Assembly: GCF_001982615.1 (NCBI RefSeq)
Contig: NZ_MLCO01000012.1
Coordinates: forward strand, 1-40,381
Reading direction: 5' to 3'
Length of the DNA stretch: 40,381 nucleotides
Origin: Teichococcus deserti
GTDB lineage: Bacteria; Pseudomonadota; Alphaproteobacteria; Acetobacterales; Acetobacteraceae
Positions within the stretch are counted from its first letter, which is position 1. Every line of letters begins with the position of its first letter. A program made the position numbers and the translations under genes. A model generated the notes under the pieces. That model saw only the letters and a program-made list of their open reading frames with translations, was not told the DNA's origin and did not search any database. Of the stretch, positions 7,552-37,629 are shown piece by piece.

Positions 7552-7839
7552 GCAGACCTCCTCCGTTAGCTTTGGAACCGGTCATGCCGTTTCCGTGAAT
7601 TATCTAAGCAGGAGCAGGCCTTTGATGCAACACGTTTCGATATAAAAACTAAGATGCCAGCTTGTTGTCGTGGCGCCCTTCGCAGCGCCTCGGCGATCTG
7701 CTTGTCGACATTTGCCCTGCGTCCACTCACTTCAATAGCGGGCATTATCGTTCTGAAGAAGTTGTGCTGAGTGGCATCTTGCTACCTAGGGTTACATATT
7801 TCCTGCCGATGCAACCGGTGTGAAATGAGGAAGCAAGCT

Positions 7840-8133: not shown

Positions 8134-8281
8134 GAGGCACGAGCTTGTTCCCCGTCTGCCAGCCGTGTGGGGAGCATAGGCAATGCGGCAACTGGCAGGA
8201 GCTCTCGCCATGAGCGCGCCAGCCGGGAATTATCGTGCAGAGCTGCCCGCGAGGATCGCCGCTGCGGCGCCGGTTCGGCCC

Positions 8282-8506
8282 ATGGACGCCTATGAATTTA
8301 GCAAGGCGCTGCGCGTGATCCGCTGGTCCTTCATCGAAGCGGCCGGGCAGCTGAACCTGGCGGACAGCACCATCCGGAAGATGGCCACTGGCCATAGCAA
8401 GGTGCCAGAGGATATCGCCGTCTGGCTGCGCGCCTATGCCGACGACGTGGCTGCGGCCCGGAATCGGCACCCGCCGCCGCGGCGCCCTGGCCGGCCGCTG
8501 TCATGA
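8282..8506 (+). CDS. Small HTH-like protein, 74 aa, first gene of module
   Basis: YEFSKALRVIRWSFIEAAGQ then LNLADSTIRKMATG looks like a helix-turn-helix resembling phage Cro/XRE-type regulators: two helices, a turn, and a basic recognition helix. The segment ending AVWLRAYADDV is a further helix. A decayed copy is at 3750. Its stop overlaps the next start as ATGA (8503-8506), so translation of the two is coupled. No clear Shine-Dalgarno precedes the ATG. The upstream frame is open to 8183, so the start is uncertain. TTATCGTG lies 45 bp upstream (8230-8237). Regulatory role inferred only from the fold pattern. Confidence 0.5.
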   Translation: MDAYEFSKALRVIRWSFIEAAGQLNLADSTIRKMATGHSKVPEDIAVWLRAYADDVAAARNRHPPPRRPGRPLS

Positions 8507-8826
8507 CCTGGCGCACCCGCCCCGAAGACGAGCCGGTGACGCTGCCACCCGCCGGCGGCTGCATCGGCGATTGGCGGGGGTGGTGGATCCAGGTCACCTG
8601 CGACTGCGGACGGAAGCTGCGCCCCGTTACCGTGGTGGCCGATCAGAAGCGGCTGCCCGACTGGTTCCCACTGCCGGCGGCGGTTCACATGATGCGCTGC
8701 GTCCAATGCTATGGCCGGCCGAAGGCAGCGGAGCTGCAGCGGGGTCGGCTGGTCGGCGGGGGTGCGCCGTATATAGGCCGAAACAGCCTGCGCGTGCCGC
8801 TGCTGGACGAGCTCTTCGGCGACTGA
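8503..8826 (+). CDS. Uncharacterised cysteine-bearing protein, 107 aa, second gene of module
   Basis: Starts in the ATGA overlap with the previous gene. It has paired cysteines at TCDCGRKL (about residues 32-39) and RCVQCYGRP (about residues 64-72), spaced like the two knuckles of a zinc ribbon. A GGCIGDWRGWW stretch near residue 20 is kept in the other copy (3973-4281). No family is recognised. Zinc binding is inferred from the CxC and CxxC pattern only. The next gene starts four bases after its stop. Confidence 0.6.
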   Translation: MTWRTRPEDEPVTLPPAGGCIGDWRGWWIQVTCDCGRKLRPVTVVADQKRLPDWFPLPAAVHMMRCVQCYGRPKAAELQRGRLVGGGAPYIGRNSLRVPLLDELFGD

Positions 8827-8830
8827 CGCC

Positions 8831-9208
8831 ATGGCGCACAACTGGAGCCACAAGAAGGTCATGCGCTACCGGCGGGCCGAGCCGGTGGACGACTTCATTG
8901 GCTGGCTGCTGGTGGCCGGCTGCGCCCAGCACGGCGCGCGCGCCTACCTGCTTTCGACCCTGCTGAAGGTGCCGAACCCGCCGGCGACGCTGGGGGCACT
9001 GGCCGGCCGGCTGCGGTGCCGCTTCTGCCGCACGCAGCCCGAGGGCGTGCTGCTGCGCAAGCACGACAAGGCGCCGGCCGAAGACAGCATCTGGCTGCGC
9101 TACCCGGCCGGCGTGAAGCCGGCTGAGCGCGTGCCCTGCGGCATGGAGCGGTCGGAATGGTGGAGCGCCTATGTCGGCGGCCGTATGCGCCGGAGAGGGA
9201 TCCTATGA
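8831..9208 (+). CDS. Uncharacterised CxxC protein, 125 aa, third gene of module
   Basis: Begins MAHNWSHKKVMRYRRAEPVD. The middle reads LRCRFCRTQPEGVLLRKHD, a CxxC followed by basic residues, which could bind zinc together with Cys31 and Cys107. The C-terminal part is rich in Trp and Arg (ERSEWWSAYVGGR). The second copy (4285 onward) is broken. The stop overlaps the next start as ATGA at 9205-9208. Function unknown; the tight packing suggests the four products act together. Confidence 0.6.
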   Translation: MAHNWSHKKVMRYRRAEPVDDFIGWLLVAGCAQHGARAYLLSTLLKVPNPPATLGALAGRLRCRFCRTQPEGVLLRKHDKAPAEDSIWLRYPAGVKPAERVPCGMERSEWWSAYVGGRMRRRGIL

Positions 9209-9864: not shown

Positions 9865-10705
9865 AGGGCTGTTAGAGCTTGAGAGCTGTTCCCATATTCC
9901 AGGCATGACGAAGCGCAAGGACGGCCAGCTTCTCACGGATGCGGTCTGGGCGGTGTGGGAGCCGCTGATCGAGGAGGTCAGGCCTCATGGCAAGACACCG
10001 CCGAAGGATCTGCGCCGGACTGTCTCTGCCATTCTCTGGCGGCATCAGAACGGCGCCAAGTGGCGCAGCATTCCAGCCGACCTTGGACCCTGGTGGCTGG
10101 CGGCCCAGCTTTTCATCCGCTGGACCAAGGCCGGTGTTTGGGAGCGCCTGCTGGACTTGGTTCAGAAGCGTGGCGTAGCGCTCGGCATGACCTTTCTGGA
10201 TGGCACCAACGTTCGCGCCCACCACAAAGCGGCAGGCGCAGAAAAAAGGGGGCCCATGGCAGAGAGCGAGATCTCCGCGAAGCGCTTGGCCGTTCTCGCG
10301 GCGGCTATGGCACCAAGGCTTGCGTAATCGCTGATGGGCGCGGACGGGCCATCGCCTTTGCTCTGGCTCCAGGTCAGGCACATGAACTGCCGCTCGCACC
10401 TGGTCTGCTTGACAGTCTCCCGGGTGTGCCGGGCTGGATCATCGGCGACCGCGGATATGCCGCCGATGCTTTTCGCGAGCGGATCTGGGCCATGGGTGCT
10501 CGGCCAGCCATTCCGCCGAAGCGAACGGATGCGCCCGTCGCTTGTCCCAGTTGGATCTACAACAACCGTTCGCGGGTGGAGAACCTCTGGGCACGGCTCA
10601 AGGAATGGCGGGCTGTCGCGACCCGCTACGAGAAGACTGCCCAATCCTTCCTCGGCGTCCTCTGCCTCGCCGCCGCCGCCGATTGGATCAAGCTCTAACA
10701 GACCT
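9865..10705 (+). mobile_element. IS5-family insertion sequence (IS427-like), 841 bp, apparently complete
   Basis: Inverted ends: AGGGCTGTTAGAGCTTGA at the left; the complement of the right end is AGGTCTGTTAGAGCTTGA, one mismatch in 18. A TA duplication flanks it (9863-9864 and 10706-10707). It carries a two-frame transposase gene open from end to end, unlike the defective element at 5914-6757. It interrupts the secreted-protein gene above. Confidence 0.85.
9905..10698 (+). CDS. IS5-family transposase in two overlapping frames
   Basis: The first frame (9905-10327) starts MTKRKDGQLLTDAVWAVWEP and includes the first catalytic Asp in TFLDGTNVRAHHKAAG. The second frame, one base back (-1), supplies GRSRGGYGTKACVIADGRGR, the second Asp in GWIIGDRGYAADAF and the final Glu region RVENLWARLKEWRAVATRYE. 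The frames overlap across AAAAAAGGGGG at 10242-10252, a slippery run, so the full DDE enzyme is probably made by -1 frameshifting. Two-frame transposases are known in the IS427 group. The alternative is a simple one-base mutation in that run. Because the whole second frame stays open, I favour programmed frameshifting. Confidence 0.75.
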
Positions 10706-11006
10706 TAGTGCTGCTAGTATGCTGGCCATCCTGAGATCGAGCTGCCGGCCCGGCGACATCATCAGTTTTCCGCCCACTAATGCTCTCTTTGCCAGCGTCG
10801 CCTGTGACTTCACAAAAACCATTGTGCACGTCGGTTCAGTAATGCTCTGCGTCTACTCTGGTGGACGTGAGCACCGGTGATTGCTTCTCCGCGGGTAGAG
10901 TGATGCCCTCGGCACTCGTAGGATGGAGGCAGAACTTTCGGAGGCGATAGCCCGACATTGGCCACGCTGCGCAGGCAAATGGAGCGGCTTTGCTAAATAG
11001 AAATAG

Positions 11007-11202: not shown

Positions 11203-11790
11203 TCATCCGCTAATCAGCACCTCGCCCGCGCGCTGCGCCTTGCCGCTGATGGAATAGGTGGTCTCAGCCGTCTCGATATCGAAGCGGCCGAACACCTCGC
11301 GCACGCCGGGCGTGTCGTTCAGCGACAGCAGGAAGCGCCCCTTGATGCCGGCGAGGAGCTCGGCCAGGCGCTCGAAATCGGCGCGGTCGAAGACGCCCGG
11401 CCCATAGTCGCGCTCGCAGCCCCAGTAGGGCGGGTCGAGATAGAACAGGGTGTCGGGCCGGTCATAGCGCGCGATCAACTCGGCATAGGGCAGGCGCTCG
11501 ATGACGACGCCAGCAAGGCGCTCGTGAACTTCATCGAACACGGCTGTAAGCTTGGTCACGTCGAAGCGCGCGGGCGTGGCAGGCGCCACGCTGAATTTGC
11601 GGCCGCTGATCTTGCCGCCGAAGGCGGTGCGCTGCAGGTAGAGGAAGCGCGCGGCGCGCTCAAGGTCGGTGAGGGTGTCCGCATTCGCGGCCAGCAGGCG
11701 CTCGAACTCGGCGCGGCTGGTCAGCTGCCAGCGCAGCATGTCCATCAGCGCGACATAGTGGCGCTGCAGGACGCGAAAGGGGTTAGCCAC
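11203..11790 (-). pseudogene. DNA adenine methylase (D12 class), N-terminally truncated
   Basis: It contains the catalytic motif DTLFYLDPPYWGC (DPPY, about residue 117) and downstream features of Dam-type N6-adenine methyltransferases (FLLSLNDTPGVREVF). The family normally begins with the AdoMet-binding FxGxG region, about 70 residues before the sequence that starts here at NPFRVLQRHY. Upstream of the GTG at 11790 the frame gives GQHINTN, which resembles the end of that region, and then loses similarity. Without the cofactor motif the 195-aa product should be inactive. Such methylases are frequent in phages, which fits the prophage debris that follows. Confidence 0.7.
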
Positions 11791-12549: not shown

Positions 12550-13089
12550 TCAGGACGCCAGGCGCATGGCCTGGAAGGGAAGGGAGGCCAGCCGACGCGC
12601 CCAGCCGAGGCCGAAGGTGGGCCAGGTGGACAGCGCGGCCATCAGGACGATGCGGCGGGCCTGGAACTCGATGGCGACGGCGGTGACCCGGTCGGGGTCT
12701 CCGTCGCCCACAGCGCGGCGCAGGGCAGCCAGCGTGGCCGGCCCGATCAGCCCATCAGCCGGGGTGCCGATGCTGGCCTGCAGCAGCTTCACGGCCGCCG
12801 CGACGCCGTTGTTGACCGCGCTGTCGAAGACCAGCAGGGCGAGGGCCAGCGGCAGCTCGTCACCCTGGACGCGGTCCCAGTAGAGCCGGCGGTAGATGGC
12901 GCGGGCGTCGGCCAGGGTCAGCGCCGCGATATCGAGGGTCGGGAAGCTGGCGGCCGAGATGCCGAACTTGGTGCCACGCAGCAGGCCCTTGTCGGCCTTG
13001 CCGCCGGTCCAGTTGCCCGGATCGGCACGGTTCAGGGTGAAGCCGCCTTCATGGCCGATCAGCAGCTCGAAGGCGCGAAGGAAGAGGTC
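12550..13089 (-). pseudogene. Phage lysozyme, glycoside hydrolase 108 type, broken start
   Basis: Reading back from 12550 gives a GH108 (ZliS-like) muramidase. ELLIGHEGGFTLNRADPGNW contains the catalytic Glu of the HEGG motif, then comes the FDSAVNNGVAAAVKLLQASI region and the C-terminal peptidoglycan-binding-3 part ending in LPFQAMRLAS. The expected start is the GTG at 13089-13091, which overlaps the upstream TGA, but it is in another frame from LRAFELLIGHEGG. One base must have been lost or gained near 13080, and the correct frame has no ATG, GTG or TTG between its stop and the HEGG motif. Without its own start the gene is probably silent. Confidence 0.65.
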
Positions 13090-16091: not shown

Positions 16092-17215
16092 ATGCGGACC
16101 AAAGAGCTGCGCGCGAAGCGGGCCAAGCTGATCACCGACGCCCAGGCTCTGATCGACAAGGAGGGCGAGACCCCCGAGGAGATCATCCGCTTCGACGCCA
16201 TGATGGCCGAGGCGGATGGCCTCAAGGCGCAGATCGATTGCCTCGAGAACGCCCTCCAGCTGCAGGCCGAGCCGGCCGAGCAGACCCTCGAGACGGCTGA
16301 TCGCCAAGGCATCTCGGCCGACCAGGCGGAAGACAACCGCTAGGCGGAGCGGCGCCTGCTGGTCGCCTGGCTGGCCAATGGCGTGGCCGGCCTGGAGGGC
16401 GACGACGCGAAGAAGGTCCGCGCCCGGCTGAGCGCCGTCGAGGGCGTCCGCAACGCGGCCGGCACCGGCAGCGGACCCGCCGGCGGCTACACCATCGCGC
16501 CCGACTTTAAGCGCGAGCTGCTGGTCGCCATGAAGGCGCAGGACGGCATGCGCGAGGCCGCCCGCGTCATCAGCATCCGCACCGGCGTCGAGCTACCCTG
16601 GCCGGACCGACGACACCGCGGCGGTCGCGATCATCATCAGCGAGAACAGCCAGCTGCCGGATGGCGAGGGCATGACCTTCGGCAGCCGTATGCTGAAGAG
16701 CTTCACCTACTCGACGCTGCCGATCCGCATCTCGCTGCAGCTGCTGCAGGACAGTGCCTTCGACTTCGACGCGCTCATCCGCGACGCCTGCGCCGGCTGC
16801 TTCCAGCGCGGCACCGATGCCCATTTCACCAAGGGCAATGGCACGACCCAGCCGGAGGGCCCGATCCTGGGCACACCGGTCGGCCGCACCGCCGCCGGCC
16901 AGACCACCAGCGTGACCTGGGACGACCTGACCGAGCTGGAGCACAGCGCCGATCCGGCCTACCGCATCGGCGCCCGCTACATGTTCCACGACAGCGTCCT
17001 GAATACGCTGAAGAAGCTGAAGGACGGGCAGGGCCGGCCGCTGTGGTCGCCGGGTGTCGCGGTCGGCGCGCCCGACACCATCAACGGCTATGGCTACTCC
17101 ATCAACCAGGACATGCCGGTGATGGCGGCCGGCGCGAAGTCCATCGCCTTCGGCAACTTCAAGAACTACGTCGTCCGCGACGTGCTGAACCTGCAGATGG
17201 TGCGGCTGGGCAGCT
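16092..17215 (+). pseudogene. HK97-type major capsid protein, broken and C-terminally lost
   Basis: The N-terminal helical scaffold (MRTKELRAKRAKLITDAQAL) starts after GAGAG and is stopped by TAG at 16341. The frame goes on with VRARLSAVEGVRNAAGTGSG. A frame change near 16600 leads into ENSQLPDGEGMTFGSRMLKS and SISLQLLQDSAFDFDALIRD-like HK97 capsid sequence, then DTINGYGYSINQDMPVM and IAFGNFKNYVVRDVLNLQMV. After RLGSS the similarity ends, where family members have about 40 more residues. One stop, one shift and a deletion: inactive prophage remnant. Confidence 0.75.
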
Positions 17216-17410
17216 CCCTTTGCACGCGGACCAAAGCAGTGGGGGTTTCACCCTCCCCCCCCATAGGGGGACCGATGACATTCGAGCTGATCGCTGGCCC
17301 CGGGTTCGACATCGAGGAGCCGCATTGGGAGGCCCTGATCCCAGCCCGAACCGCTGGCGAGCACGTCAGGCTGCGCGACATAGCTACAAACTGCTCAGAT
17401 ATCGCTGGAT

Positions 17411-17454
17411 GGGTGTTTCAGACCGTTAAACGGACGTTTGGGTTTGAAACACCC
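17411..17454. repeat. Hairpin 1, perfect 10-bp stem
   Basis: GGGTGTTTCA (17411-17420) pairs with TGAAACACCC (17445-17454). The 24-base loop contains its own palindrome CCGTT-A-AACGG (17423-17433). Confidence 0.7.
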
Positions 17455-17474
17455 CCTCCGGTTAGCAGCTGGTG

Positions 17475-17516
17475 GCCTTTACGTTTCGTCAAACCACCGT
17501 TTGGAAACGTAAAGGC
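17475..17516. repeat. Hairpin 2, perfect 13-bp stem with inner 5-bp stem
   Basis: GCCTTTACGTTTC (17475-17487) pairs with GAAACGTAAAGGC (17504-17516). Inside, CAAAC (17490-17494) pairs with GTTTG (17499-17503) around CACC. Only 20 bases separate it from hairpin 1, and both share GTTTC/GAAAC in their arms. There is no T-run, so they look more like a protein-binding or structured-RNA element than a terminator. Confidence 0.7.
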
Positions 17517-17630
17517 TCACTATCCCATAGTCCCCGGTGAGCATGGCCCACAGACCGCCTCTCAAGGCGCCGGACGGCGCTGGCGTCCCGGAGGGGGGTG
17601 GAGAGGCGGCGACCTAATGTCGAATAGCTT

Positions 17631-17843
17631 TTATTCGGAGCGCGCCATCATTTTGTGCCGACTTTGGGCCACAGCAACTTCCTTTCGCAGCATGCGGCGA
17701 TCTTCTGCGGGCAGGCCGTCAATGGTCCTGTTCAGCAGAGGGAACATGTCGTCGCTTCTCACGCCGCCTGCGGCGACAAGAGCCTCAATCTCTCGAACTA
17801 AATCGTCTATCACGGCTCTCGCAGCGATCGCTGACTTGGCCAT
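17631..17843 (-). CDS. Small acidic helical protein, 70 aa, tandem paralog B
   Basis: From ATG 17843: MAKSAIAARAVIDDLVREIE, then ALVAAGGVRSDDMFPLLNRT and GLPAEDRRMLRKEVAVAQSR. It shares with its upstream neighbour (17884-18126) the pattern V-x-G-x-V-x-x-D-x-x-x-x-L-L-x-x-x-I-x-G-L-P-A, so the two are tandem paralogs. AAGGA lies upstream of this ATG. A GTG at 17882 would add 13 residues. No family or function recognised. Confidence 0.55.
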   Translation of the reverse strand: MAKSAIAARAVIDDLVREIEALVAAGGVRSDDMFPLLNRTIDGLPAEDRRMLRKEVAVAQSRHKMMARSE

Positions 17844-17883
17844 AACGCCATCCTTGATTTTCCTCTGGAGTAAGAAAAACACT

Positions 17884-18126
17884 TTAGGTAGGCGGGTTCC
17901 ACTCCAAATTCTCGGCGCGGCTCATCCACAGCCTATGGGCCTCGAAGCGTATGAGAGGCTGAGCGCCTGCAGGAAGTCCGGCAATAGCATCGTCCAGCAA
18001 TTGCGACGCCGCGTCCGGATGGACGTCACCCTGAAGAATCAGGCTTGTCACGGCATCGACCATGGCATCGGCAACGTCTTGCATCAGGCTTGAATGGCTA
18101 AAGTCGGGCTGGGAGAACACAGACAA
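17884..18126 (-). CDS. Small acidic helical protein, 80 aa, tandem paralog A
   Basis: MSVFSQPDFSHSSLMQDVAD, then DAVTSLILQGDVHPDAASQL and LDDAIAGLPAGAQPLIRFEA. It aligns with the following gene across about 55 residues. Both are short, acidic and helical, with no signal or membrane segment. The two genes are one operon by spacing. Role unknown. Confidence 0.55.
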   Translation of the reverse strand: MSVFSQPDFSHSSLMQDVADAMVDAVTSLILQGDVHPDAASQLLDDAIAGLPAGAQPLIRFEAHRLWMSRAENLEWNPPT

Positions 18127-23687: not shown

Positions 23688-24053
23688 TCACGCTGACCGG
23701 CAGGCAGTATAGTCTACAATCTGATCCAGCGACGGGTCGGTGAGAGCAGCGGCAGTCGGCGCGTTGCCTGGGGGTGGCTCTACGATGTCGTCTGCCCAGA
23801 TGTGCAACCGCCCTGACATCCTTCCACCCCCCGCCGTATGCTTGCTCCTCGCAACACCGTCGATCAGCAGGCGATGCCGGTCGAAGCAGGAGGGAAGATC
23901 CAGGCCCTCACCTGGGAAGCAGGCCGCGACCTCGATCAATGCCGATCGGGAAATTGAGCAGGATATCCATCCCTCCTCTACCATCACTCTGAAGAGCATC
24001 ATCCTGCCATCCCAGTTAGGGCGGAGGACGCGCTGCTGAAATTGGATTTGCAT
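23688..24053 (-). CDS. DUF1488-like small protein, 121 aa (paralog)
   Basis: MQIQFQQRVLRPNWDGRMML then GWISCSISRSALIEVAACFP, with GRLHIWADDIVEPPPG near the end. Same length and same motifs as the product at 5069-5434 on the opposite strand (CSISRSA, GRLHxWADD, VEPPPG), so they are clearly paralogs, at moderate identity. The frame extends upstream to 24116 with a Pro/Arg-rich sequence that does not match the paralog, so I start at 24053. Confidence 0.65.
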   Translation of the reverse strand: MQIQFQQRVLRPNWDGRMMLFRVMVEEGWISCSISRSALIEVAACFPGEGLDLPSCFDRHRLLIDGVARSKHTAGGGRMSGRLHIWADDIVEPPPGNAPTAAALTDPSLDQIVDYTACRSA

Positions 24054-24148
24054 GATTGTTCCATGGTGCCGTGGCGCCGGTCGCCTCGGGCTTGGCGACC
24101 GTTTAGGGAAAGGCAAGCGTGTCGAATGCTGATCAATACAAAGCGGCG

Positions 24149-26276: not shown

Positions 26277-28373
26277 TTAGCTTGGTGACGGGTCGCCCGC
26301 GATCAACGCCTTGATTTTGGCGGCTAGGCCTTCCAGCGCGAAAGGCTTGGTCAGGACGGACATGCCAGAAGTGGGATAAGCTCCCATAACGGCGCTCTCC
26401 GCGTAACCGGTGATGAACAGCACCTTCAGGCCAGGCCTCAGGGCACGCCCGGCATCGGCGAGTTGCCTGCCGTTCATGCCGCCGGGGAGACCAACATCGC
26501 TGACCAGAAGGTCCACGCGTGCCGCCGAGCGGAGGATCTCCAGGCCAGACCGGCCGTCCTCGGCTTCAAGAGCGGCGTAGCCGAGATCGCCCAGCACCTC
26601 GACGACCAGCATACGGACGCTCGGCTCGTCGTCGACCACGAGAACGGTTTCACCTGGCTCCGCTTGGGGTGGCAGGCCTGGGCTGAGCGAAGCCTCCTCT
26701 GGAGCGGCGGCGCTGGTAAGGTGGCGCGGAAGGTAGAGCCGGATCGTCGTACCGCGTCCAACCTCCGAGTGGATCCTGACCTGACCACCGGACTGCCGCG
26801 CGAAGCCATAGATCATTGAGAGCCCCAGCCCGGTTCCCTGGCCGATGGGCTTGGTCGTGAAGAAGGGATCGAAGGCGCGTTCTACGATGTCCGGCGACAT
26901 TCCCGTACCCGTATCGGTCACGCCAAGGGATACATATCCGCCCGGCGACAAACCACGCGGCTCGGCCTGCAGAGGGTTCAAGATGACGTTCTCCACCTCT
27001 ATCCGAATGCGTCCGCCATCCGGCATGGCATCACGCGCATTGATGCAGAGGTTCAGCAGCGCATTCTCAAGCTGATTCGGGTCCACCAATGTCGGCCACA
27101 GGTTCGATGCACTCGTCATCTCGACCGTGATGGAGGGCCCGACCGTGCGGGAGATCAGGTCGCTCAGTCCAGCGGCCAGACGTCCTACGTCGGTCGGTCG
27201 GGGGTCCAGGGTCTGCCTGCGTGAGAAGGCCAGCAGCCGGTGGGTCAGCGCCGCCGCCCGAGTGGCGGCCTCCTGGGCCATGCCGATGAACCGCTCCAGC
27301 TCGGCGGTCCGGCCCTGCCGCACGCGGGCCTGCAGCAACTCCAGGCTACCAGTAATTCCTGCCAGCAGGTTGTTGAAGTCGTGCGCCAGACCGCCCGTAA
27401 GCTGCCCGACCGCCTCCATCTTCTGTGACTGGCGGAGCAGATCCTCCATCCGCTCGCGCTCCGCTGCCTCAACCAGAGCCGCGTCGTGCGCCCGTCTCAG
27501 CTCCGTGGTACGCAGGGCCACGCGCTCCTCCAGCGTTTCGTTGAGCTGGTGGAGCCGATCCTCGGCCGTCTTGCGGTCCGTGATGTCCGATGACACGCCA
27601 ACGAGGCGCGGCCTGGCGCCGTAGCGGTCGCGGACAACGCGTGCGCGGATCTCAGCCCAGTGGGTGCTGCCATCCGGCCAAAGCGTTCGGTACTCGATGG
27701 CATAATCGATGCCGTCGGTGATGCTGGCGCGCACGGCGGCCTGCATCCTGTCCCGGTCCAGCGGGTGGATGCTGGCCAGCAGATCGCTGTAGGTGAACGG
27801 CACGTTCGGCCCGCGGCCGAAAACGGCCTTACAGGTGGCCGAGCTGGTCAGCACACCGGCCTCGATATCGAACTCCCAGGAGCCGAGGCGTCCGGCCAGG
27901 AGGGCCGTCTGCAGGCGTTCCTCGCTCTCGCGCAGCTCCTCGATCCGGGCGCGCGCTTCAAATTGGCGATTGCGGCCTTTCAGGGCCGAGTGGGCGATGC
28001 TGACGAGGGTTGCCGGATGAAAGGGGCGCTCCAGGAAGGTGACGTTGCCCAACGCCTCGGACAAGTGCGCCGCGGCTGGGTTCCGTTCCGGGCCGCCGCC
28101 ACCTCGGGTCAGGACAATGAAGGGCAGGTCGGACCATGTGGGCTGCGCCGCAACCTTTGCCGCGATGCCGCCGAGGTCAGTGCCTCGCAGCGCTTCCTCG
28201 GTCACCAGGACAAAGCAGGCATCCTCACCCAGCGCCAACTCAAGGCTCGCCAGGTCGGGGCAGACACGGCTGGTGGCGCCCGCCTCTCGCAGCAAGGCTT
28301 CTGCGATGGAGGCATCGCGGCCGTACGGCGTGTGGATCAACGCCTGCGGCAACTGATGCGTGGGGAGGCGCAT
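26277..28373 (-). CDS. Hybrid sensor histidine kinase, 698 aa
   Basis: Domains in order: an N-terminal receiver-like domain (about 1-130) whose acceptor region reads FVLVTEEAL and lacks the standard Asp; a PAS domain (about 150-270, GSWEFDIEAGVLTSSATCKA through GVSSDITDRK); a coiled linker; HisKA with phosphorylated His331 in GQLTGGLAHDFNNLL; an ATPase domain with N box NLCINARDAM, DTGTGM and GQGTGLGLSM; and a C-terminal canonical receiver with Asp626 in LLVSDVGLP and Lys676 in LTKPF. It is soluble, so it should sense a cytosolic cue. Its ATG touches the TAG of the upstream KaiC-like gene (TAGATG), so the two are co-translated and very likely work together. The terminal receiver may pass phosphate on or act as a sink. 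Confidence 0.92.
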   Translation of the reverse strand: MRLPTHQLPQALIHTPYGRDASIAEALLREAGATSRVCPDLASLELALGEDACFVLVTEEALRGTDLGGIAAKVAAQPTWSDLPFIVLTRGGGGPERNPAAAHLSEALGNVTFLERPFHPATLVSIAHSALKGRNRQFEARARIEELRESEERLQTALLAGRLGSWEFDIEAGVLTSSATCKAVFGRGPNVPFTYSDLLASIHPLDRDRMQAAVRASITDGIDYAIEYRTLWPDGSTHWAEIRARVVRDRYGARPRLVGVSSDITDRKTAEDRLHQLNETLEERVALRTTELRRAHDAALVEAAERERMEDLLRQSQKMEAVGQLTGGLAHDFNNLLAGITGSLELLQARVRQGRTAELERFIGMAQEAATRAAALTHRLLAFSRRQTLDPRPTDVGRLAAGLSDLISRTVGPSITVEMTSASNLWPTLVDPNQLENALLNLCINARDAMPDGGRIRIEVENVILNPLQAEPRGLSPGGYVSLGVTDTGTGMSPDIVERAFDPFFTTKPIGQGTGLGLSMIYGFARQSGGQVRIHSEVGRGTTIRLYLPRHLTSAAAPEEASLSPGLPPQAEPGETVLVVDDEPSVRMLVVEVLGDLGYAALEAEDGRSGLEILRSAARVDLLVSDVGLPGGMNGRQLADAGRALRPGLKVLFITGYAESAVMGAYPTSGMSVLTKPFALEGLAAKIKALIAGDPSPS

Positions 28374-29876
28374 CTACGGAGCGGCGGGCGTGGTGAGCAG
28401 AGGTACCGCATCGCCAACAAAGGTTGGCACGCCGCGGAGCACGCCCTGGAATTGGGTCAGCGCCGTACCCAGGCTGAGCCCACGCTGCCCGATGCGGTAT
28501 TCTCGGATGGTGTCTTCATGCGTGCCGGTGCGCTTCTTGATAACGGACACGGCGCGCCGGACCTTTCCCAGCGCCTCGAAGTAGCGGAGCAGTATCACCG
28601 TGTCCGCCAGATAGGTGATGTCAACCGGCGACTGCATGTCGCCAACCAGCCCATGCTGCGCAACGGTCAGGAAGGTGGTCGCACCCTGGCGGTTCAGGTA
28701 CTGCAGCAGCTCATGGATATGCAGGACCAGCGCGTTCTCATCCGGCATCGCGGCCTGGTAGCCGTTGAGGCTGTCGATCACGACTGTCTTGGCCTGGGCG
28801 AAATTCACCCGCTCCCGCACCCGATGGGCGAACTCGCCGGGAGACAATTCGGCCGCATCCACCTGCTCAACGTGCAGCATCCCGCCGTTACACATCTCCT
28901 CAAGGTCAAAGCCCATGGCGCGGGTGCGGTTGAACAACAGGCCCAGCTCCTCGTCGAACACGAAGATTGCGGCCTTCTCGCCGCGCCGGACCGCGGCTGC
29001 CACGAATTGCAGCGCAAAGGTGCTCTTGCCCGTGCCCGCAGGGCCTAGCACCAGGGCGCTGGACCCCTGCTCGATTCCGCCGCCGAGCAGCGCGTCCAAC
29101 TCGACGATGTCGCTGGTAATGGCGCGGCGCTCGAAGCCGGTGCGATGCTCGGACGCGACGAGCCGCGGGAACACCTGTACCCCGCCATGCTTAATTGCGA
29201 AGTCGTGGAAGCCACCCCGGAAGGATTGACCGCGGTACTTCGACACGCGCAGCCTGCGCCGCTCGGCACCGTATTCCGGGGCCAGCTCCTCAAGACGGAT
29301 GACGCCGTGCACGACACTGTGGACCGTCTTGTCCAGCGTGTCCGTCGTCAGGTCGTCAAGCAGCAGCACGGTGGCACCGAAGCGGGCGAAGTAGTGCTTC
29401 AGCGCGAGGATCTGCCGTCGGTAGCGTAGTGAGCTCTGCGCCAGAAGCCGGATCTCAGACAGACTGTCTAGGATGACGCGGCTTGGCCGAACGCGCTCGA
29501 AGGTCTCGAAGATCTGCCTGGTCGCCTCGCCGAGTTCCAGGTCGGAGGAGTACAGCAAGCTCTGCTGTTGCGCCGCGTCCAGCAGGCTCTCGGGCGGCAC
29601 CAGCTCGAAGACCTCGATGTTGTCCGGCAAGGTCCAGCCATGCGATCGGGCGCCTTCCCGCAGTTCACGTTCGGTTTCGGATAAGGTGATGTAGAGGCAT
29701 CGCTCGCCCGACCGTGCACCCTCCAGCAGGAAGCTCAGGGCGATGGTGGTCTTGCCGGTACCGGGGCTTCCTTCCAGCAGGAACAGGTGGCCCAGCGTCA
29801 GCCCTCCGGCCAAGATATTGTCGAGGCCGGTGACGCCGGTGCGCGCCTTCTCCACGGTCAGGCAGTCATCGGCCAT
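28374..29876 (-). CDS. KaiC-like double-domain ATPase, 500 aa
   Basis: Two RecA-like halves as in clock protein KaiC. The first half has Walker A GSPGTGKT at 36-43 and a Glu pair near 67-69 (TLSETERE). The second has GPAGTGKS at 278-285, Glu309-Glu310 (FVFDEELG) and Walker B VVIDSL. Where cyanobacterial KaiC has the Ser431-Thr432 phosphorylation pair, the aligned sequence PVDITYLADTVILLRY gives Thr421-Tyr422. Length is near normal (519 aa in cyanobacteria). No kaiA or kaiB is present, so it belongs to the non-cyanobacterial KaiC group often found beside histidine kinases. It overlaps the HigA-like gene upstream by 11 bases and abuts the kinase gene downstream, forming a compact operon. Confidence 0.92.
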   Translation of the reverse strand: MADDCLTVEKARTGVTGLDNILAGGLTLGHLFLLEGSPGTGKTTIALSFLLEGARSGERCLYITLSETERELREGARSHGWTLPDNIEVFELVPPESLLDAAQQQSLLYSSDLELGEATRQIFETFERVRPSRVILDSLSEIRLLAQSSLRYRRQILALKHYFARFGATVLLLDDLTTDTLDKTVHSVVHGVIRLEELAPEYGAERRRLRVSKYRGQSFRGGFHDFAIKHGGVQVFPRLVASEHRTGFERRAITSDIVELDALLGGGIEQGSSALVLGPAGTGKSTFALQFVAAAVRRGEKAAIFVFDEELGLLFNRTRAMGFDLEEMCNGGMLHVEQVDAAELSPGEFAHRVRERVNFAQAKTVVIDSLNGYQAAMPDENALVLHIHELLQYLNRQGATTFLTVAQHGLVGDMQSPVDITYLADTVILLRYFEALGKVRRAVSVIKKRTGTHEDTIREYRIGQRGLSLGTALTQFQGVLRGVPTFVGDAVPLLTTPAAP

Positions 29877-30222
29877 GGGTTGTTCCTATCTGGATCAGGA
29901 CTGCGTCAGGGAGGGAATAATGGGCAATCCTGGACAGCGAGTCCGAGAGCGCCTGCTGGGCTTTCGCCAGATCATAGGCCTGCTGGCGGTCGAGCCAGAA
30001 GGCGGCAGGGACACCACAGAACCGCTCCAGCCGCACCGCCATCGCCGGGCTGATGGCGCTGTGCCCGGCGAGGATACGATGCAGGTTTTGCCGGCTCGTC
30101 ACGAGCTCGGATGCGACTTGGCTTACACTAAGCCCAAGAAAGGGCAGGATCTGCTCGCGCAGTAGCACGCCCGGGTGGTCCGGACAGGTTGGCACATCCG
30201 GGGCAGAGGAGTGGCGTGCCAT
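29866..30222 (-). CDS. higA: HigA/VapI-type XRE regulator, 118 aa
   Basis: HPGVLLREQILPFLGLSVSQ then VASELVTSRQNLHRILAGHS and ISPAMAVRLERFCGVPAAFW is the full HigA antitoxin pattern, including the H-P-G start and the helix-turn-helix. The C-terminal LDRQQAYDLAKAQQ is also typical. No intact HigB toxin gene precedes it, though HigB normally does. Instead it overlaps the KaiC-like gene by 11 bases. It may have been recruited as regulator of the kaiC-kinase operon. The ATG at 30222 is the only start giving the family N-terminus. Confidence 0.85.
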   Translation of the reverse strand: MARHSSAPDVPTCPDHPGVLLREQILPFLGLSVSQVASELVTSRQNLHRILAGHSAISPAMAVRLERFCGVPAAFWLDRQQAYDLAKAQQALSDSLSRIAHYSLPDAVLIQIGTTHGR

Positions 30223-30295
30223 GGAACCGCAAGTGTAAAGCGCCGCTTGACGGAGTGCAATGACCAGAGCGTTACCGTTGGGCCTTGTTGACGGG

Positions 30296-30565
30296 TCATA
30301 TCTGCTTCGCCCAGCCTGCCTCTGAAAGCAAACCTTCCACTCTTGGCCAAACCGGGCGGGCTCCTGCCAGTTGCCGCATTCGTTGACACCCAGCTTGGCA
30401 ATGCGTCGTGTCCGGCTGGATAGCGAGAGGAATTTCATCCCTGATGCCGCTCCATGCAGTCTGCCGACTGTCGTCGTCAGCAGGGCTCTTCTTGGCACCT
30501 TCATCGGTCAGTTGCGGGGCATCATCCCTGGCCTGGTCCTGATCCGGATGCTTCCCCATCATCAT
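30296..30565 (-). CDS. Possible small acidic protein, 89 aa
   Basis: Starts with three Met codons after GGAG at a good distance. MGKHPDQDQARDDAPQLTDE and GAKKSPADDDSRQ are hydrophilic and probably disordered, as in many short alphaproteobacterial proteins. The second half (VWPRVEGLLSEAGWAK) is less convincing. It would be the first gene of the leftward operon, 73 bp before higA. Confidence 0.4.
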   Translation of the reverse strand: MMMGKHPDQDQARDDAPQLTDEGAKKSPADDDSRQTAWSGIRDEIPLAIQPDTTHCQAGCQRMRQLAGARPVWPRVEGLLSEAGWAKQI

Positions 30566-30655
30566 TGCTTGTGATCTCCACACGCTTATCTCTGGTTAAA
30601 CCCAGGTTGTGGAGCCTCCGGCAGTTTTCTGCGTGGTCGCTGCCGCCTCATCGCC

Positions 30656-31140
30656 ATGCTTTTTTGGCGAGGGCGAGATAAGCTCGTGCCTACCAATCAG
30701 GATACCTTCAGAGGGATCTGCATCCTCGTGGTAGAAGCCGACTACATCGCTGCTATGGAGATAGGCGACTTCCTGGAGGAAGCTGGCGCCACGGTAGTCG
30801 GGCTAGTGCCCACCAAAGTTGACGCGCTCAACAATCTGCAGCGTGGTGGATCAACTTGGTCATCTTCAACGCCGTCTTGCGCGATCGACGTGCGGACATG
30901 CCGGGCGAATGCTTGCGCCGCCGCGATATCCCTTCCCTGATGGTCAATGACTGGCATCTGCCTGCTGGCGATCCGCTGTGCAAAGGTCGTCTGCAGGTGC
31001 TGCATCCAGTGGATCGGCGCCCTTTTGGGAAAGCTGTTCGGAAGCGGCTGGGCCTAGAACAGCGCAGCCGCGCGCCCCCTGGAGCCTACCTGCACACAAT
31101 AAATGTCTATCACCATGTCGTGCTCAAATTTATTTTCTGA
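30656..31140 (+). pseudogene. Degenerate receiver-domain protein, frameshifted
   Basis: The first frame gives ICILVVEADYIAAMEIGDFL and EEAGATVVGLVPTKVDALNN. Near 30853 one base is missing, and the rest follows in another frame as NLVIFNAVLRDRRADMPGEC and PSLMVNDWHLPAGDPLCKGR. The restored protein is a close sibling of the 31250-31606 product, also with Asn at the phospho-acceptor position (VIFNAVLRD). It faces away from the higA-kaiC-kinase operon, so the 30.2-30.7 kb interval is a divergent control region. Confidence 0.75.
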
Positions 31141-31249
31141 AGGCGTACCAACCCATGTTGTTTCGCCATTGTCGAAATCATGCATTGTAGAAATCCGCCG
31201 CTGCGTTGATGCGGAGGCAAAAGACCCCCTTATCCTGGATGCCGGCATT

Positions 31250-31606
31250 ATGTTGAGCGGCCGCAGAATTCTCGTGGCTGAGTCGGACTACTATTCGGCG
31301 ATGGAGCTTTGTTTCTCTCTTCATGAAGTCGGTGCGATCATCATTGGCCCTGCCTCGAGCGAGGACGCGGCGCTTGACCTCTTGCTGCCCGGCCAAGTGG
31401 ACCTGGTGGTCTTCAATGCCTGGCTCCGCGATCAGCGGGTCACGTTGCTCGCCGAATGCCTTCGCCGCCTGCGGGTGCCGTCCGTGATGGTGAACGACAG
31501 GCTGCTGTCCAGCAGCGATCCCTTGTGCCAGGGACGCCCGCAAATGCTTCATCCATTGACGCATGACCGCTTCCAACGGGTTGTCGCCAATTTGCTGCCG
31601 GCGTGA
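31250..31606 (+). CDS. Degenerate receiver-domain (pseudo-receiver) protein, 118 aa
   Basis: MLSGRRILVAESDYYSAMEL starts the receiver fold, then LHEVGAIIIGPASSEDAALD. Strand 3 is DLVVFNAWLRDQ, with Asn replacing the acceptor Asp. The later part has PSVMVNDRLLSSSDPLCQGR and MLHPLTHDRF, with His-Pro instead of Lys-Pro at the switch. I start at ATG 31250, which aligns with siblings; the frame is open to 31103. CACGATAA follows 39 bp after the stop (31645-31652) beside a CCGAC/GTCGG hairpin. Confidence 0.75.
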   Translation: MLSGRRILVAESDYYSAMELCFSLHEVGAIIIGPASSEDAALDLLLPGQVDLVVFNAWLRDQRVTLLAECLRRLRVPSVMVNDRLLSSSDPLCQGRPQMLHPLTHDRFQRVVANLLPA

Positions 31607-31783
31607 TCGCAGCTTGCCTGGGCGGCTGCGGGCGCCCAGCTTTACACGATAACGCCGACTTCTCATGTCGGGAGCTCTGCACATCGCAAGCCCCCCTTGC
31701 GGAAAATCATTCCGCTCTCACAATCTAGGCGCTGGGTAACATCCGGCTGTGGCTTGATCTCCCACAGCGAAGGGGGGGGTGAT

Positions 31784-32164
31784 ATGCGTAACAGCTTGCC
31801 TGTCCAAAGCAGACGCATCCTGCTCGTCGAGCCCAGTTATCTCGTGGCCATGGATCTCTGCCAAAAGCTGCGACGAGGCGGAGCCATTGTGTTGGGCCCG
31901 GTTCCGAAGGTGGAGCAGGCTCAGATGATGCTCGCTAGGAAAGATGTCGAAGCGACGCTGTTTAGCGCCTCGCTTCCTGGCGGCGAGGCACTGGCAGCAC
32001 AATTGGCCGTTTGGCGCTCGCCGTCGCTGCTGCTTTCGTATGTCCCGTTGCCTGCCGGGCATCCTATCCGCTCCGGGCGTCCCCAGCTGGTCATTCCTGC
32101 TGAGGACGAAGCTCTGCTTCAGGCAGCGGGTGCACTGTTCCTTCCTCAGGACAGCTCCGCTTAG
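31784..32164 (+). CDS. Degenerate receiver-domain (pseudo-receiver) protein, 126 aa
   Basis: Start after AAGGGGGGGG. SRRILLVEPSYLVAMDLCQK, then RRGGAIVLGPVPKVEQAQMM. The acceptor position is Ser (ATLFSASLPGG), and the first acidic cluster is reduced to one Glu (VEPSY), so metal binding and phosphorylation are both unlikely. The segment SLLLSYVPLPAGHPIRSGRP matches the P-A-G-x-P-L-x-x-G-R-P block of its siblings. The switch Lys is absent (LVIPAED). Co-directional with the receivers on both sides. Confidence 0.72.
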   Translation: MRNSLPVQSRRILLVEPSYLVAMDLCQKLRRGGAIVLGPVPKVEQAQMMLARKDVEATLFSASLPGGEALAAQLAVWRSPSLLLSYVPLPAGHPIRSGRPQLVIPAEDEALLQAAGALFLPQDSSA

Positions 32165-32300
32165 ACCTGGTCCGAATGCCGGCACTGTCGTGCGAGCTCC
32201 GTCAGGAAACACACTTCCCATTTCAGTGAACCCAACCTGGGTGAATGCGACCATTAGGCTTATGGCCTTCTCTGCGGTTTGACGTTGGGAAGCAGGAGAC

Positions 32301-32708
32301 ATGACCGGCAAGTCGCGAAGCTCATTCATCGACGGCCGCGTCTTGATCGTCGAGGAGCAACGCGAGACTGGCGAGGTGATCTGTGAATGCCTCAGGAGTG
32401 CTGGTGCAGAGATTGTCGCTCTGGTGCCAACGTTTGCGGCGGCTCTGCAACTCCTGCTGCGCGAGCCGGTCGATGCCGTGATCTTCGATGCCGACCAGAT
32501 CAGTGACAGCGAAGCCATTTTGCTGGCTGAGGAGCTGGACACCCGGCGCATGCCTTCGCTGATGCTGAATGGCGAGCCGGTGCCGGCGGGATCGCCGCTG
32601 CATGAAGGTCGGGCAGAGATGCTTTGGCCGTTCTCGGAGGTTGCCTTGCAGGAGATGGTGCGCGGCTTGGTGCAGGAAGCCCGGCGCAGGCTGCCACGTC
32701 CCCGTTGA
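32301..32708 (+). CDS. Receiver-like protein keeping the acceptor Asp, 135 aa
   Basis: Starts after AGGAGA. GRVLIVEEQRETGEVICECL, then RSAGAEIVALVPTFAAALQL. Strand 3 reads DAVIFDADQISD, with Asp at the acceptor site, making it the one sibling that might still be phosphorylated. The second acidic residue of the metal site is Gln (EEQ), and the switch region is LWPF, not LKP, so activity would be altered. The PSLMLNGEPVPAGSPLHEGR block places it firmly in the same family. CACGATAA starts 14 bp after its stop within a GATAA/TTATC hairpin. Confidence 0.75.
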   Translation: MTGKSRSSFIDGRVLIVEEQRETGEVICECLRSAGAEIVALVPTFAAALQLLLREPVDAVIFDADQISDSEAILLAEELDTRRMPSLMLNGEPVPAGSPLHEGRAEMLWPFSEVALQEMVRGLVQEARRRLPRPR

Positions 32709-35457: not shown

Positions 35458-36153
35458 ATGAAAAGCACGCCAATTCTGGCTCTTGCGAGCACCAAGGGCG
35501 GTGTCGGCAAGACCACCCTCACCTTCTGCCTCGCCATTGAAATGGCGCGCCGGTTATCCGGAAATCAGGATAATCGGGATTCCGGAAATCCGGATGAATG
35601 GGTGGTAGAGTGCATCGACGCCGACCCCAACCGGACGCTTTATGAGGCTGTCCGCAAGGGGCGCCCAAAAGGCGTCCATGCCGAGATTGCCACTGCCGAG
35701 ACGCTCTTGCCTGCGGTGGCCGCCGCGACGGCACGGGCCAAGGTGGTCCTGATCGACCTGGAGGGCACCGCCAACCAGGCGATGCTCTATGCCTGCGGCA
35801 AGGCCAGCCTAGTCATCATTCCCGCGCAGCCCAGCCTGTTCGACGTGGTCGAGGCCATGAAAACCAGCGCCGTGGTTGCCCAGGCCGCAGACCTCACGGG
35901 GCGAGACATCGAAGCGAAAGTGATCCTAACCCGGACCCCCGTGCTGCGGCAGCGGGTCGCCGAACACAGCCGCCGTCAGTTCGAAGCTAAGGGCCTACCG
36001 CTCATGCGATGCGAACTGGTGGAGCGTGCTGCCTTCAAGATGATGACCTACACGGGGCAGTCGCCCAGCGAAGATGATCCGGAAGGTGGCGCAGCCTCGA
36101 ATGTGGCGGCGTTAACAGACGAGGTCATGGGCCTACTGGGGATGCCAATCTGA
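35458..36153 (+). CDS. parA: ParA-family partition ATPase, 231 aa
   Basis: Deviant Walker A STKGGVGKTT at about residues 11-20, then VVECIDADPNRTLYEA with the A' Asp and KVVLIDLEGTANQAMLYACG as Walker B. VILTRTPVLRQRVAEH is the typical C-terminal part. At 231 aa it is a short (type Ib-like) ParA without an N-terminal helix-turn-helix. Such proteins move plasmid copies apart on the nucleoid. Residues 31-45 are encoded by the plasmid's own repeat units (LSGNQDNRDSGNPDE), an insertion in a surface loop. The stop overlaps the next start (TGATG). Confidence 0.92.
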   Translation: MKSTPILALASTKGGVGKTTLTFCLAIEMARRLSGNQDNRDSGNPDEWVVECIDADPNRTLYEAVRKGRPKGVHAEIATAETLLPAVAAATARAKVVLIDLEGTANQAMLYACGKASLVIIPAQPSLFDVVEAMKTSAVVAQAADLTGRDIEAKVILTRTPVLRQRVAEHSRRQFEAKGLPLMRCELVERAAFKMMTYTGQSPSEDDPEGGAASNVAALTDEVMGLLGMPI

Positions 36154-36449
36154 TGGGCAAGAGGCCGATGCCCGCGCTGCCCGACATCGCGGACGAAGAA
36201 ATCAAATCCCGCCTGGAGCCTCTTGCGGAGAGGGTGTTGCCGAAGCGACAGGCAGCTCCGCCACCCCGTGCCAAGGTGGTCAACGCCGAATTCCTGATGC
36301 CTGAAACCGTGAAGACCGAGCTGAAGGTTAGGGCGGCGCAGCGAGGCATTTCTGCATCGAAGCTGCTGCTTGAGATCCTCCGAGAGGCGGGACTGCCGGT
36401 GACCGACGCCGATCTGATCGACCATCGTAAGCTTCCCCGGAAGTCCTGA
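36153..36449 (+). CDS. ParB-analogue, ribbon-helix-helix partition protein, 98 aa
   Basis: Starts in the TGATG overlap with parA, as is usual for short par operons. The C-terminal half (NAEFLMPETVKTELKVRAAQ then RGISASKLLLEILREAG) is a ribbon-helix-helix with a beta strand that would read DNA. The N-terminal half is charged and flexible and probably stimulates ParA. It should bind the flanking CCGG-N4-CCGG repeats and repress its own promoter. No HTH-type ParB is present. Confidence 0.75.
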   Translation: MGKRPMPALPDIADEEIKSRLEPLAERVLPKRQAAPPPRAKVVNAEFLMPETVKTELKVRAAQRGISASKLLLEILREAGLPVTDADLIDHRKLPRKS

Positions 36450-36605: not shown

Positions 36606-37385
36606 TCAATACTCAGGCCGGTAGCTGCCAACCACTAGTGCAGTGATTGCCAGATCGGCCTCTCCAGAGGCGTGGCTGTAGTCTTCCTCTGAGCAGTCGA
36701 TGGTCTGATCGACATCTTCGGCATCGTCCATGGCGACGCTCGGCGCAGGAAGAATGATCGGGTCCTGAAAGGCCGGGTGCGAGCTGCGCGGCCAAAGCAG
36801 ATGCCGCCCACGCTCGTCGACCTGGTACTCCTTCAGGGTGGCTTCAAAGCCAGCAGCGCCCCGGCGCTGCACCACCACGCGTTCGCCTGGCCGCGGCAGT
36901 CGCCCCAGATCGGTGTAACGGATGACCACCACCATGCTGCCGTTCGGGTAGACCTTGTCCATGGAATCACCGCGCACCAGAAGGCCGTATTTCGGGATCC
37001 CCGGATAGCGGGGATCTGCTGGCACGGTGATCGGGAACCATTCTTCTGACTGCCACTCCATGGCCTCACGCCAGACGCCGGCCTGCACATGGCTGCGCAC
37101 CTGCACCGGCTCCATCGTCACGGGCCCGAGGCTGACCTCCGCCGGGGCAGGGCTGTCAGAGACGGCCGCTTCCAGGAAGTAGGCGGGCGGGACACCCAGC
37201 ACGTCTGCCAGCCGCTTCAGGTTCTCGGGCTTGGGCGCGTGCTCCCGCGGCGGCTTCATGTGGCGGATGGTGTTCTCGCCCACGCCCGCCATCAGGCAGG
37301 CCTTCCGCTCGCTGAGCGGGCGGGTGGGCGTGCCCATGGCGCGGAGGCGCTCATCGATCCGGGAAAGAAGCAGCTCGTATTTCAT
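36606..37385 (-). CDS. XRE-S24 peptidase repressor (CI/LexA-like), 259 aa
   Basis: N-terminal helix-turn-helix (RPLSERKACLMAGVGENTIR, then HMKPPREHAPKPENLKRLAD) and C-terminal S24 self-cleavage domain: Ala-Gly cleavage region VQAGVWREA near residue 102, nucleophile Ser141 in LLVRGDSMDKVYPNG and general base Lys185 in EATLKEYQVDERG. It would repress plasmid or prophage genes and be cleaved during the RecA-driven DNA damage response. The start at ATG 37385 gives the family N-terminus. Divergent from the candidate replication genes at 37.6-39.1 kb, which it may control. Confidence 0.88.
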   Translation of the reverse strand: MKYELLLSRIDERLRAMGTPTRPLSERKACLMAGVGENTIRHMKPPREHAPKPENLKRLADVLGVPPAYFLEAAVSDSPAPAEVSLGPVTMEPVQVRSHVQAGVWREAMEWQSEEWFPITVPADPRYPGIPKYGLLVRGDSMDKVYPNGSMVVVIRYTDLGRLPRPGERVVVQRRGAAGFEATLKEYQVDERGRHLLWPRSSHPAFQDPIILPAPSVAMDDAEDVDQTIDCSEEDYSHASGEADLAITALVVGSYRPEY

Positions 37386-37629
37386 GATAGTTGTAAAAAT
37401 CACCTTGCCGGTATTCCGCGCTACTCCTATCGTCGCAAAGAAGGCAAGTCCAGCAGGAGCGGAGCAGCTCCAGCGTTCAAGGCTGGCATCCCTTTATCTC
37501 CCGCGCAGCAGCCTCTGGAGCTCCTCTAACCATGTCCCCTCCCTGCCGCGCCAGAGATTTGTTCTCCATACGTTCGAACGAGGCTGTCCTCCTGGCGCCA
37601 CGTCGGCCGGATGGAGGAGGTTGCCTTCC

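Follow-up and report, generated by a model that had tools for sequence, protein, structure and literature searches.

A lineage-limited family of stand-alone pseudo-receivers in Teichococcus deserti and two related genomes

Contig C24 of the 6.25-Mb draft genome of Teichococcus deserti (G000), which was analysed over its whole length of 40,381 bp and is called the window here, carries seven related receiver genes, R1 to R7 (Table 1). Four of them are read rightward beside an operon for a KaiC-like ATPase and a hybrid kinase. Together with relatives in Pseudoroseomonas cervicalis ATCC 49957 (G010) and Roseomonas sp. 18066 (G011) they make up a family of stand-alone pseudo-receivers that is restricted to one lineage, mobile, present in many copies and under selection, with at least 21 intact genes in these three genomes (13 in G000, seven in G011, one in G010). 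On balance we consider it probable that these lineage-specific proteins are cargo of mobile elements, descend from FATGUY single-domain receivers and dock to partners without phosphate, which would dampen or redirect the latter.

Results and Discussion

The window receivers were connected by BLASTP (R2-R4 1.7e-17, R3-R4 4e-16, R2-R7 1.4e-14, R3-R6 6e-12, R4-R5 7e-9), and the two pieces of the frame-broken R1 matched R2 with 1.8e-20 and 5e-7. An earlier note on this DNA had described four related rightward receivers, one frameshifted, and three further siblings, which is borne out by these matches; judged by sequence, R1 to R7 can be regarded as one protein family. The acceptor residues given there are those of Table 1, and the replacement of the switch Lys in all seven was likewise confirmed (Ser in R5, Trp in R4, R6 and R7, His in R2, Ile in R3 and, read by eye, His in R1). 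The description as an Asp-less family holds for six of the seven genes; R4 keeps the Asp. A start of R2 at 31103 may also be considered, since the in-frame sequence upstream resembles that on contig C8. When R2 to R7 were scanned with the Pfam model Response_reg, only R4 (E 0.002) and R6 (E 0.043) were seen, both under the cut-off, and R2, R3, R5 and R7 gave no match at E≤1.

With a profile of six window receivers, 34 matches at E≤0.01 were obtained in the own genome, canonical receivers included. The 13 intact family members among them are the six of the window, two on contig C114, one on C8, three on C588 and one on C594, to which the broken R1 is added. Six subtypes can be distinguished, named after R2 (with R1), R3, R4, R5, R6 and R7; the gene G011:C4:39430 stands outside all six. 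Throughout the 21 intact members the first acidic residue is Glu and a Pro follows the position of the switch Lys, the Lys itself occurring in none. The acceptor Asp is found in two members, both of the R4 type, and Asn in 11, the others carrying Ala, Gly, Pro or Ser; the second acidic residue is lost in 10. As the key catalytic residues are absent, all of these proteins are pseudo-receivers, the two R4-type proteins being pseudo-receivers that are not Asp-less. According to the accessible part of a study on Asp-less receivers, Asn, Ser, Gly and Ala are, after Glu, common replacements of the acceptor (PMC4395418).

In a phylogenetic tree, 20 family members were separated as one clade from 33 other receivers with a support of 99/97, and the clade was recovered at 99/94 with a partly different set of 33 other receivers. 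The partial gene L090 and the gene G011:C4:39430 were left out of the trees. The distribution was searched in 58 relatives, 397 genomes of the family (best ten candidates each) and 385 of the class (best eleven each). Matches below 1e-30 occurred only in G000, G010 and G011, which corresponds to three of the 17 genomes of the genus. This cut is not clean: the true members G011:C17:35002, G011:C4:39430 and R5 score only 1e-14 to 1e-24, so that diverged members elsewhere could be missed by it. Because of this overlap of scores, 76 further matches (28, 11, 17 and 20) were translated and read. The acceptor Asp is kept in 74 of them, and the Lys wherever the match reaches it.

The two exceptions, L193 (G002:C13:61539-61904) and L200 (G013:C362:30850-31221), have Asn as acceptor, with the Lys and an ATGY motif preserved. 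In the tree they cluster with canonical receivers of G003, G005 and G016 (100/99) and fall outside the family (99/94). This position points towards an independent loss of the Asp in FATGUY-like receivers of another lineage of the genus. The Asn receiver of G002 shares a contig with kaiC at a distance of 28 kb. Four plasmid matches from other genera (of 42 records) turned out to be canonical receivers. Two diverged genes of the own genome, G000:C114:1676-2023 (L029) and G000:C167:17835-18194 (L033), seem Asp-less by eye (Cys and Asn, respectively) and stand outside the family count. A contig scan with R2-type sequences revealed no relatives, phage records contained no match to R2, the sole member tried, and IMG/VR held no relative for an R7-type query. 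The R2-type query found one relative there (99% receiver match) on a contig of 33,389 bp, which is as long as C8 and is thus not an independent occurrence. A literature search on Asp-less receivers with Roseomonas, Acetobacteraceae or prophage gave, by title, nothing on this receiver family among the matches listed.

Structural comparison points towards the origin of the family. In a sequence profile search of the PDB the entries 2lpm/2m98 (Sma0114) ranked first and 5ieb (SdrG) second. AlphaFold 2 (AF2) models of R2 and R6, with predicted local distance difference test (pLDDT) values of 94 and 82, show a receiver fold from which helix alpha4 is absent in both cases. Foldseek with the R2 model gave 5ieb as best match, with a template modelling (TM) score of about 0.8 to receivers for this one protein. 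The missing alpha4 of Sma0114 is mentioned in the accessible part of PMC9981736, and Sma0114 and SdrG are described as FATGUY single-domain regulators in the parts available of PMC9981736, PMC5964349 and PMC5898713. The same portions of the latter two contain the proposal that, in other alphaproteobacteria, FATGUY regulators serve HWE/HisKA2 kinases as promiscuous phosphorylation hubs. The family shares with the FATGUY regulators Sma0114, SdrG and MrrA a single receiver domain of about 120 residues, the lack of alpha4 (in the models) and the alphaproteobacterial host. It differs from them in that the switch Lys is lost, the acceptor Asp is lost in 19 of 21 members, the genes are plasmid- or prophage-linked and multicopy, and the FATGUY motif in beta4 and the following loop is replaced (by MVND in R2, LLSY in R3, MLNG in R4, VLSL in R7 and VIGW in R6). 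Since both the motif and the phosphorylatable Asp and Lys are gone, sequences and models are best read as those of descendants of FATGUY single-domain receivers, not of members of that class.

The pseudo-receivers RitR, FrzS and CmrT likewise have a receiver fold without the phosphotransfer residues. Described pseudo-receivers are mostly domains of larger proteins. The present family, by contrast, consists of stand-alone proteins in six subtypes, with 13 intact copies in one genome.

Selection was estimated by a Nei-Gojobori count within subtypes. The ratio of nonsynonymous to synonymous substitution rates (dN/dS) lies between 0.07 and 0.38 in 15 of 18 pairs; in the remaining three, synonymous sites are saturated and the corresponding ratio of proportions (pN/pS) is 0.31-0.47. 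As many dS values exceed 1 the ratios are rough; none is near neutrality. This argues for purifying selection and hence for functional receivers. It also bears on the idea that the genes are functionless plasmid copies decaying under relaxed selection. The broken R1, the shortness of R5 and its relative and the seemingly broken nhaA, head-protein and helix-turn-helix (HTH) genes of the window would suit such a decay. The low ratios, the 21 intact open reading frames and the acceptor Asn, which is kept in all four R2-type and all six R7-type genes, speak against it, and we consider decay quite improbable.

With the Lys lost in 21 of 21 members and the Asp in 19, a phosphate switch is implausible, and the work of the receivers independently of phosphorylation appears well supported by these residues. 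To this extent the proposal of the earlier note, phosphorylation-independent partners or decoys of the kinase or of KaiC, stands; its second half is treated below. The Asn of 11 members could, in principle, deamidate to Asp, so that some members become phosphorylatable in the manner of a timer, and a possible reversion of a receiver Asn to Asp is mentioned in the accessible part of PMC4395418. An efficient switch is unlikely with the Lys missing throughout and the second acidic residue lost in 10 members, and other members carry Ala, Gly, Pro or Ser. We therefore regard the deamidation timer as highly improbable.

A conservation profile of 18 sequences, from which the R5 type and G011:C4:39430 were left out, showed better preservation between subtypes for the core, the first Glu, the Pro that follows the Lys position and, in the beta4-beta5 linker, a P-L-x-x-G-R stretch.

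By hand count the receivers occur in 13 clusters (seven, five and one in the three genomes), and they track a plasmid-like backbone and an HTH cassette. Three copies of the Rep-like gene were found in the own genome at E≤1e-10, on C8, on C588 and in the window, and none of them is more than 7 kb away from a receiver; G011 has one copy, on the receiver contig C17 at a distance of 12 kb from the receiver. A small HTH-like gene, so called by eye as it has no Pfam match, lies at all four own-genome loci 0.1-0.7 kb from a receiver and faces away from it, three receiver subtypes being involved. With a Cys-rich and a third small gene it forms a cassette that is found twice in the window (3732-4632 and 8183-9208), the first HTH gene being broken. 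The cassette recurs on C8 and, in the form of remnants, on C114; the companion genes of its first window copy lie at 3.99-4.63 kb. Two of three other copies of the small coiled-coil-like gene between R7 and its HTH-like neighbour adjoin a receiver, a count biased by the fact that only fetched receiver contigs were covered. The 25-bp element upstream of R7 recurs with 88-96% identity upstream of C588:15194, G011:C17:6892 and G011:C21:38232. Chance estimates of 5e-6 and 2e-10 for the neighbourhood links assume independent positions and are overstated if one element carries everything.

Phage-related genes are also found near the receivers. Contig C8 combines ParA-like, Rep-like, UmuD/UmuC-like and recombinase-like genes with a phage tail-tape-measure gene and is a candidate phage-plasmid. 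The receiver of G010 has, 0.15 kb away, a member of a phage gene family without known function, and tail genes follow 9-18 kb further on. Of the six R7-type genes, three, distributed over three genomes, are preceded at about 0.1 kb upstream by a gene with an FNRPDYLRQVL-like start; the assignment of this gene as a glycosyltransferase was made by eye only, and the copy tried gave no Pfam or PDB match. Two further R7-type genes adjoin a GSCFA or WcbI gene. On G011:C4:25185-40372, four pseudo-receivers are interleaved with two hybrid kinases and two cyclic di-GMP enzymes (GGDEF and GGDEF-EAL). Five receivers and three small genes were compared with defence-system models, and none matched at E≤0.01.

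The arrangement of the HTH loci also suits another explanation, in which the receivers co-regulate the divergent HTH-like proteins (HigA for R1) as a plasmid switch, the pseudo-receiver binding or sequestering the HTH protein; R1 faces HigA just as the others face their HTH-like genes. Against it stand the damage to two of the four HTH loci, next to which the R6-type receivers remain intact and selected, and the lack of an adjacent HTH copy at the receivers of C588, C594, G011 and G010; hitchhiking on one element could yield the same linkage. We hold this switch to be unlikely.

Several observations, including the two broken HTH loci, weigh against our preferred reading of docking cargo on mobile elements. 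G010 has a receiver and no Rep-like gene, and 17 Rep-like copies occur in six genomes without the family (nine of the 17 genomes were searched). In G011 a distance of 8 kb separates the HTH copy from a receiver, and four genomes without the family contain weaker relatives of the HTH gene (30-41%). Helix alpha1, usually the kinase-docking helix, ranks with the more variable segments when subtypes are compared (mean conservation 0.51, with segments ranging from 0.47 to 0.85 over the 18 sequences), which makes a single shared kinase target unlikely and would fit different partners for different subtypes. HATPase_c domains were found within 5 kb of four of the 13 clusters against 1.4 expected (p 0.044, uncorrected), a weak sign of a general kinase linkage. 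EcfG-type (general stress) promoters were not found beyond chance in 24 upstream regions (one site, 0.8 expected).

The hybrid kinase, KaiC and HigA genes form a tight leftward operon, in which KaiC overlaps HigA by 11 bp and abuts the kinase without a gap, in agreement with the overlapping or touching ends noted earlier. The HigA-like protein exceeds the cut-off of the antitoxin model TIGR02607 (78.2 versus 47.7 bits). Its neighbours in the list of open reading frames are KaiC and R1, with no HigB model run on small frames. KaiC is a two-domain ATPase (Pfam, 238.9 bits) that misses the NCBIfam equivalog cut-offs of clock KaiC (262.7 versus 408 bits; TIGR02655, 171.8 versus 546). KaiB was found in five of the 17 genus genomes, with no match at E≤0.001 in G000, G010 and G011. 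A cyanobacterial-type (KaiABC) clock was set aside, as the receiver-bearing genomes lack KaiB matches and KaiC stays below those cut-offs. Defence-system models gave weak matches for KaiC and HigA.

Relatives of the window KaiC were found in 291 plasmid records, 272 of them over at least 80% of the query and 89 at 60-80% identity. In four of four records (Caballeronia, Ensifer, Aureimonas and Agrobacterium fabrum C58), with KaiC 74.7-78.5% identical to that of the window, it is followed by a kinase-type gene, in three cases a sensor kinase; in A. fabrum C58 the following 2-kb gene is annotated only as response regulator. HigA is annotated in one of the four (Caballeronia), with the same 11-bp overlap. 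Unlike the window, these Rhizobiaceae and Caballeronia operons have no family receiver alongside.

The earlier note had proposed that the receivers act as partners or decoys of the neighbouring kinase or KaiC. Their proximity in the window, divergent from a common region, is in line with this, as are HisKA-HATPase_c-REC hybrid kinases near the receivers on G011:C4 and C21. Pseudo-receivers can act in Kai systems, as KaiA and CikA do. The distribution does not support this assignment, and the outcome that the note itself had named as counting against it, relatives in genomes without kaiC or this kinase, was encountered. Seven of 17 genus genomes, that of the window included, have an orthologous KaiC (80-88% identity outside the window), and the family is found in three, with an overlap of two (Fisher p 0.54; p 0.59 if the unrelated Asn receivers of G002 and G013 are counted in). 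Five genus genomes have kaiC without a family member, and G010 has a member with no KaiC match at E≤1e-100. The kaiC gene of G011 was located on C71, apart from the receiver contigs C4, C17 and C21; being pieces of a draft assembly, these do not give the true distance. Of the 13 receiver clusters, R1-R4 alone lies less than 10 kb from this orthologous kaiC.

Since the gene caller misses some receivers, their absence near kaiC was established by tblastn with 21 members at E≤0.01. No family member was detected around kaiC in six relatives and four plasmids (10.5-17 kb each), the stretch of G011 ending at the contig end 0.15 kb after the kinase, nor on C240 and C119, two contigs of the own genome that carry other KaiC-like genes. 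The KaiC-kinase pair thus occurs without these receivers in 10 of 10 contexts (Roseomonas relatives and the Rhizobiaceae and Caballeronia plasmids). KaiB, as stated above, is missing from the matches of all three family-bearing genomes. Most likely the operon is an independent module that occurs widely without the receivers, and the two look like unrelated neighbours whose nearness is, as far as the data go, a coincidence of position. On grounds of co-occurrence and linkage the KaiC-kinase partnership was set aside, and we give it hardly any credence. On C240 this further KaiC-like gene, 52% identical, is accompanied by a HATPase_c domain at about 0.9 kb, here too without family receivers.

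The window itself appears to be a plasmid. A 37-bp direct repeat stands at both contig ends (1-37 and 40345-40381) and by itself suggests circularity, so that the contig probably represents an entire circular plasmid of some 40,344 bp. This is backed by ParA with its small partner, the Rep/HTH-like gene and a CI/LexA-like repressor. The trio of ParA, small partner and Rep-like gene is also that of the small Roseomonas plasmids p1318-7 and p546-4; unlike the window, these gave no family receiver by tblastn when p1318-7 was searched completely and p546-4 over 50 of its 64 kb. Further observations in the window are an NhaA-type antiporter gene between R5 and R6 (1800-3007), seemingly broken into several frames, two IS5-type transposase genes flanking R7 (5909-6760 and 9905-10708), and two stretches (4889-5434 and 23688-24116) that encode homologues with 52% identity over 94 residues, the first of which matches DUF1488.

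Table 1. Coordinates of the features discussed, in window positions unless another locus is named.
Feature	Position	Strand	Remarks
R5, short pseudo-receiver	1356-1703	-	acceptor Pro; relative G011:C4:39932
R6, pseudo-receiver	3210-3608	-	acceptor Ala
Broken copy of HTH-like gene	3732-3961	+	divergent from R6
R7, pseudo-receiver	7186-7551	-	acceptor Asn; subtype in all three family-bearing genomes (6 genes)
25-bp element upstream of R7	7574-7598	-	promoter or operator candidate
Small coiled-coil-like gene	7771-8133	+	by eye; between R7 and HTH-like gene
Small HTH-like gene	8183-8506	+	divergent from R7; HTH by eye
Two small genes travelling with HTH-like gene	8503-9208	+	fetched receiver contigs only
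Part of DNA methyltransferase	11203-11790		phage remains
Endolysin-like piece	12550-12792		phage remains
Piece of major head protein	16672-18093		phage remains
Hybrid kinase	26277-28373	-	PAS, HisKA, HATPase, REC
KaiC-like double ATPase	28374-29876	-	
HigA-like HTH gene	29866-30222	-	first in kaiC operon
R1, Asp-less receiver, frame-broken	30656-31140	+	acceptor Asn; pieces 30656-30865, 30856-31138
R2, stand-alone pseudo-receiver	31250-31606	+	acceptor Asn; switch Lys replaced by His
R3, stand-alone pseudo-receiver	31784-32164	+	acceptor Ser; switch Lys replaced by Ile
R4, stand-alone pseudo-receiver	32301-32708	+	Asp kept; Trp for Lys, Asn for Thr
Rep/HTH-like plasmid gene	34452-35054	-	one of 3 copies in genome
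ParA and small partner gene	35458-36449	+	plasmid partition; similar trio in Roseomonas p1318-7
CI/LexA-like repressor	36606-37403	-	Peptidase_S24
Genes with FNRPDYLRQVL-like start	L157:14103-15077, L117:5796-6776, L174:17875-18858		

Conclusion

The reading that we prefer may be put as follows. The receivers would be cargo of plasmid- and prophage-like elements of Roseomonas/Pseudoroseomonas that retained from their presumed ancestor the receiver fold without alpha4, the Pro after the Lys position and the first acidic residue, and gave up the Lys, the FATGUY motif and, in 19 of 21 members, the acceptor Asp. With these losses they can probably no longer relay phosphate, and docking to other proteins is their most likely mode of action. 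Each subtype may hold a partner that was formerly phosphorylated or read by the ancestral hub, that is, a host kinase or phosphotransfer protein; alternatively, its partner could be a regulator encoded beside the receiver. Docking would then dampen or redirect the partner, depending on the expression of the receiver. A bolder version, in which plasmids and prophages of Roseomonas carry diversified phospho-dead copies of the hub-type receiver of their own host, each fitted to a separate target among kinases, phosphotransfer proteins and regulators, and with these jointly rewire host stress and surface signalling without phosphotransfer, strikes us as rather unlikely.

The mode of action of bacterial pseudo-receivers is termed an open question in the accessible part of PMC12632262. 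The family offers a clean test system in this respect: 21 intact stand-alone pseudo-receivers of one descent, in six subtypes and with varied acceptor residues. Its advantages are the lack of a fused effector domain, a known ancestor class, measurable selection and the presence of canonical relatives within the genomes that carry it. Its association with mobile elements points to a possible route by which plasmids or prophages could act on the phosphorelays of their hosts.

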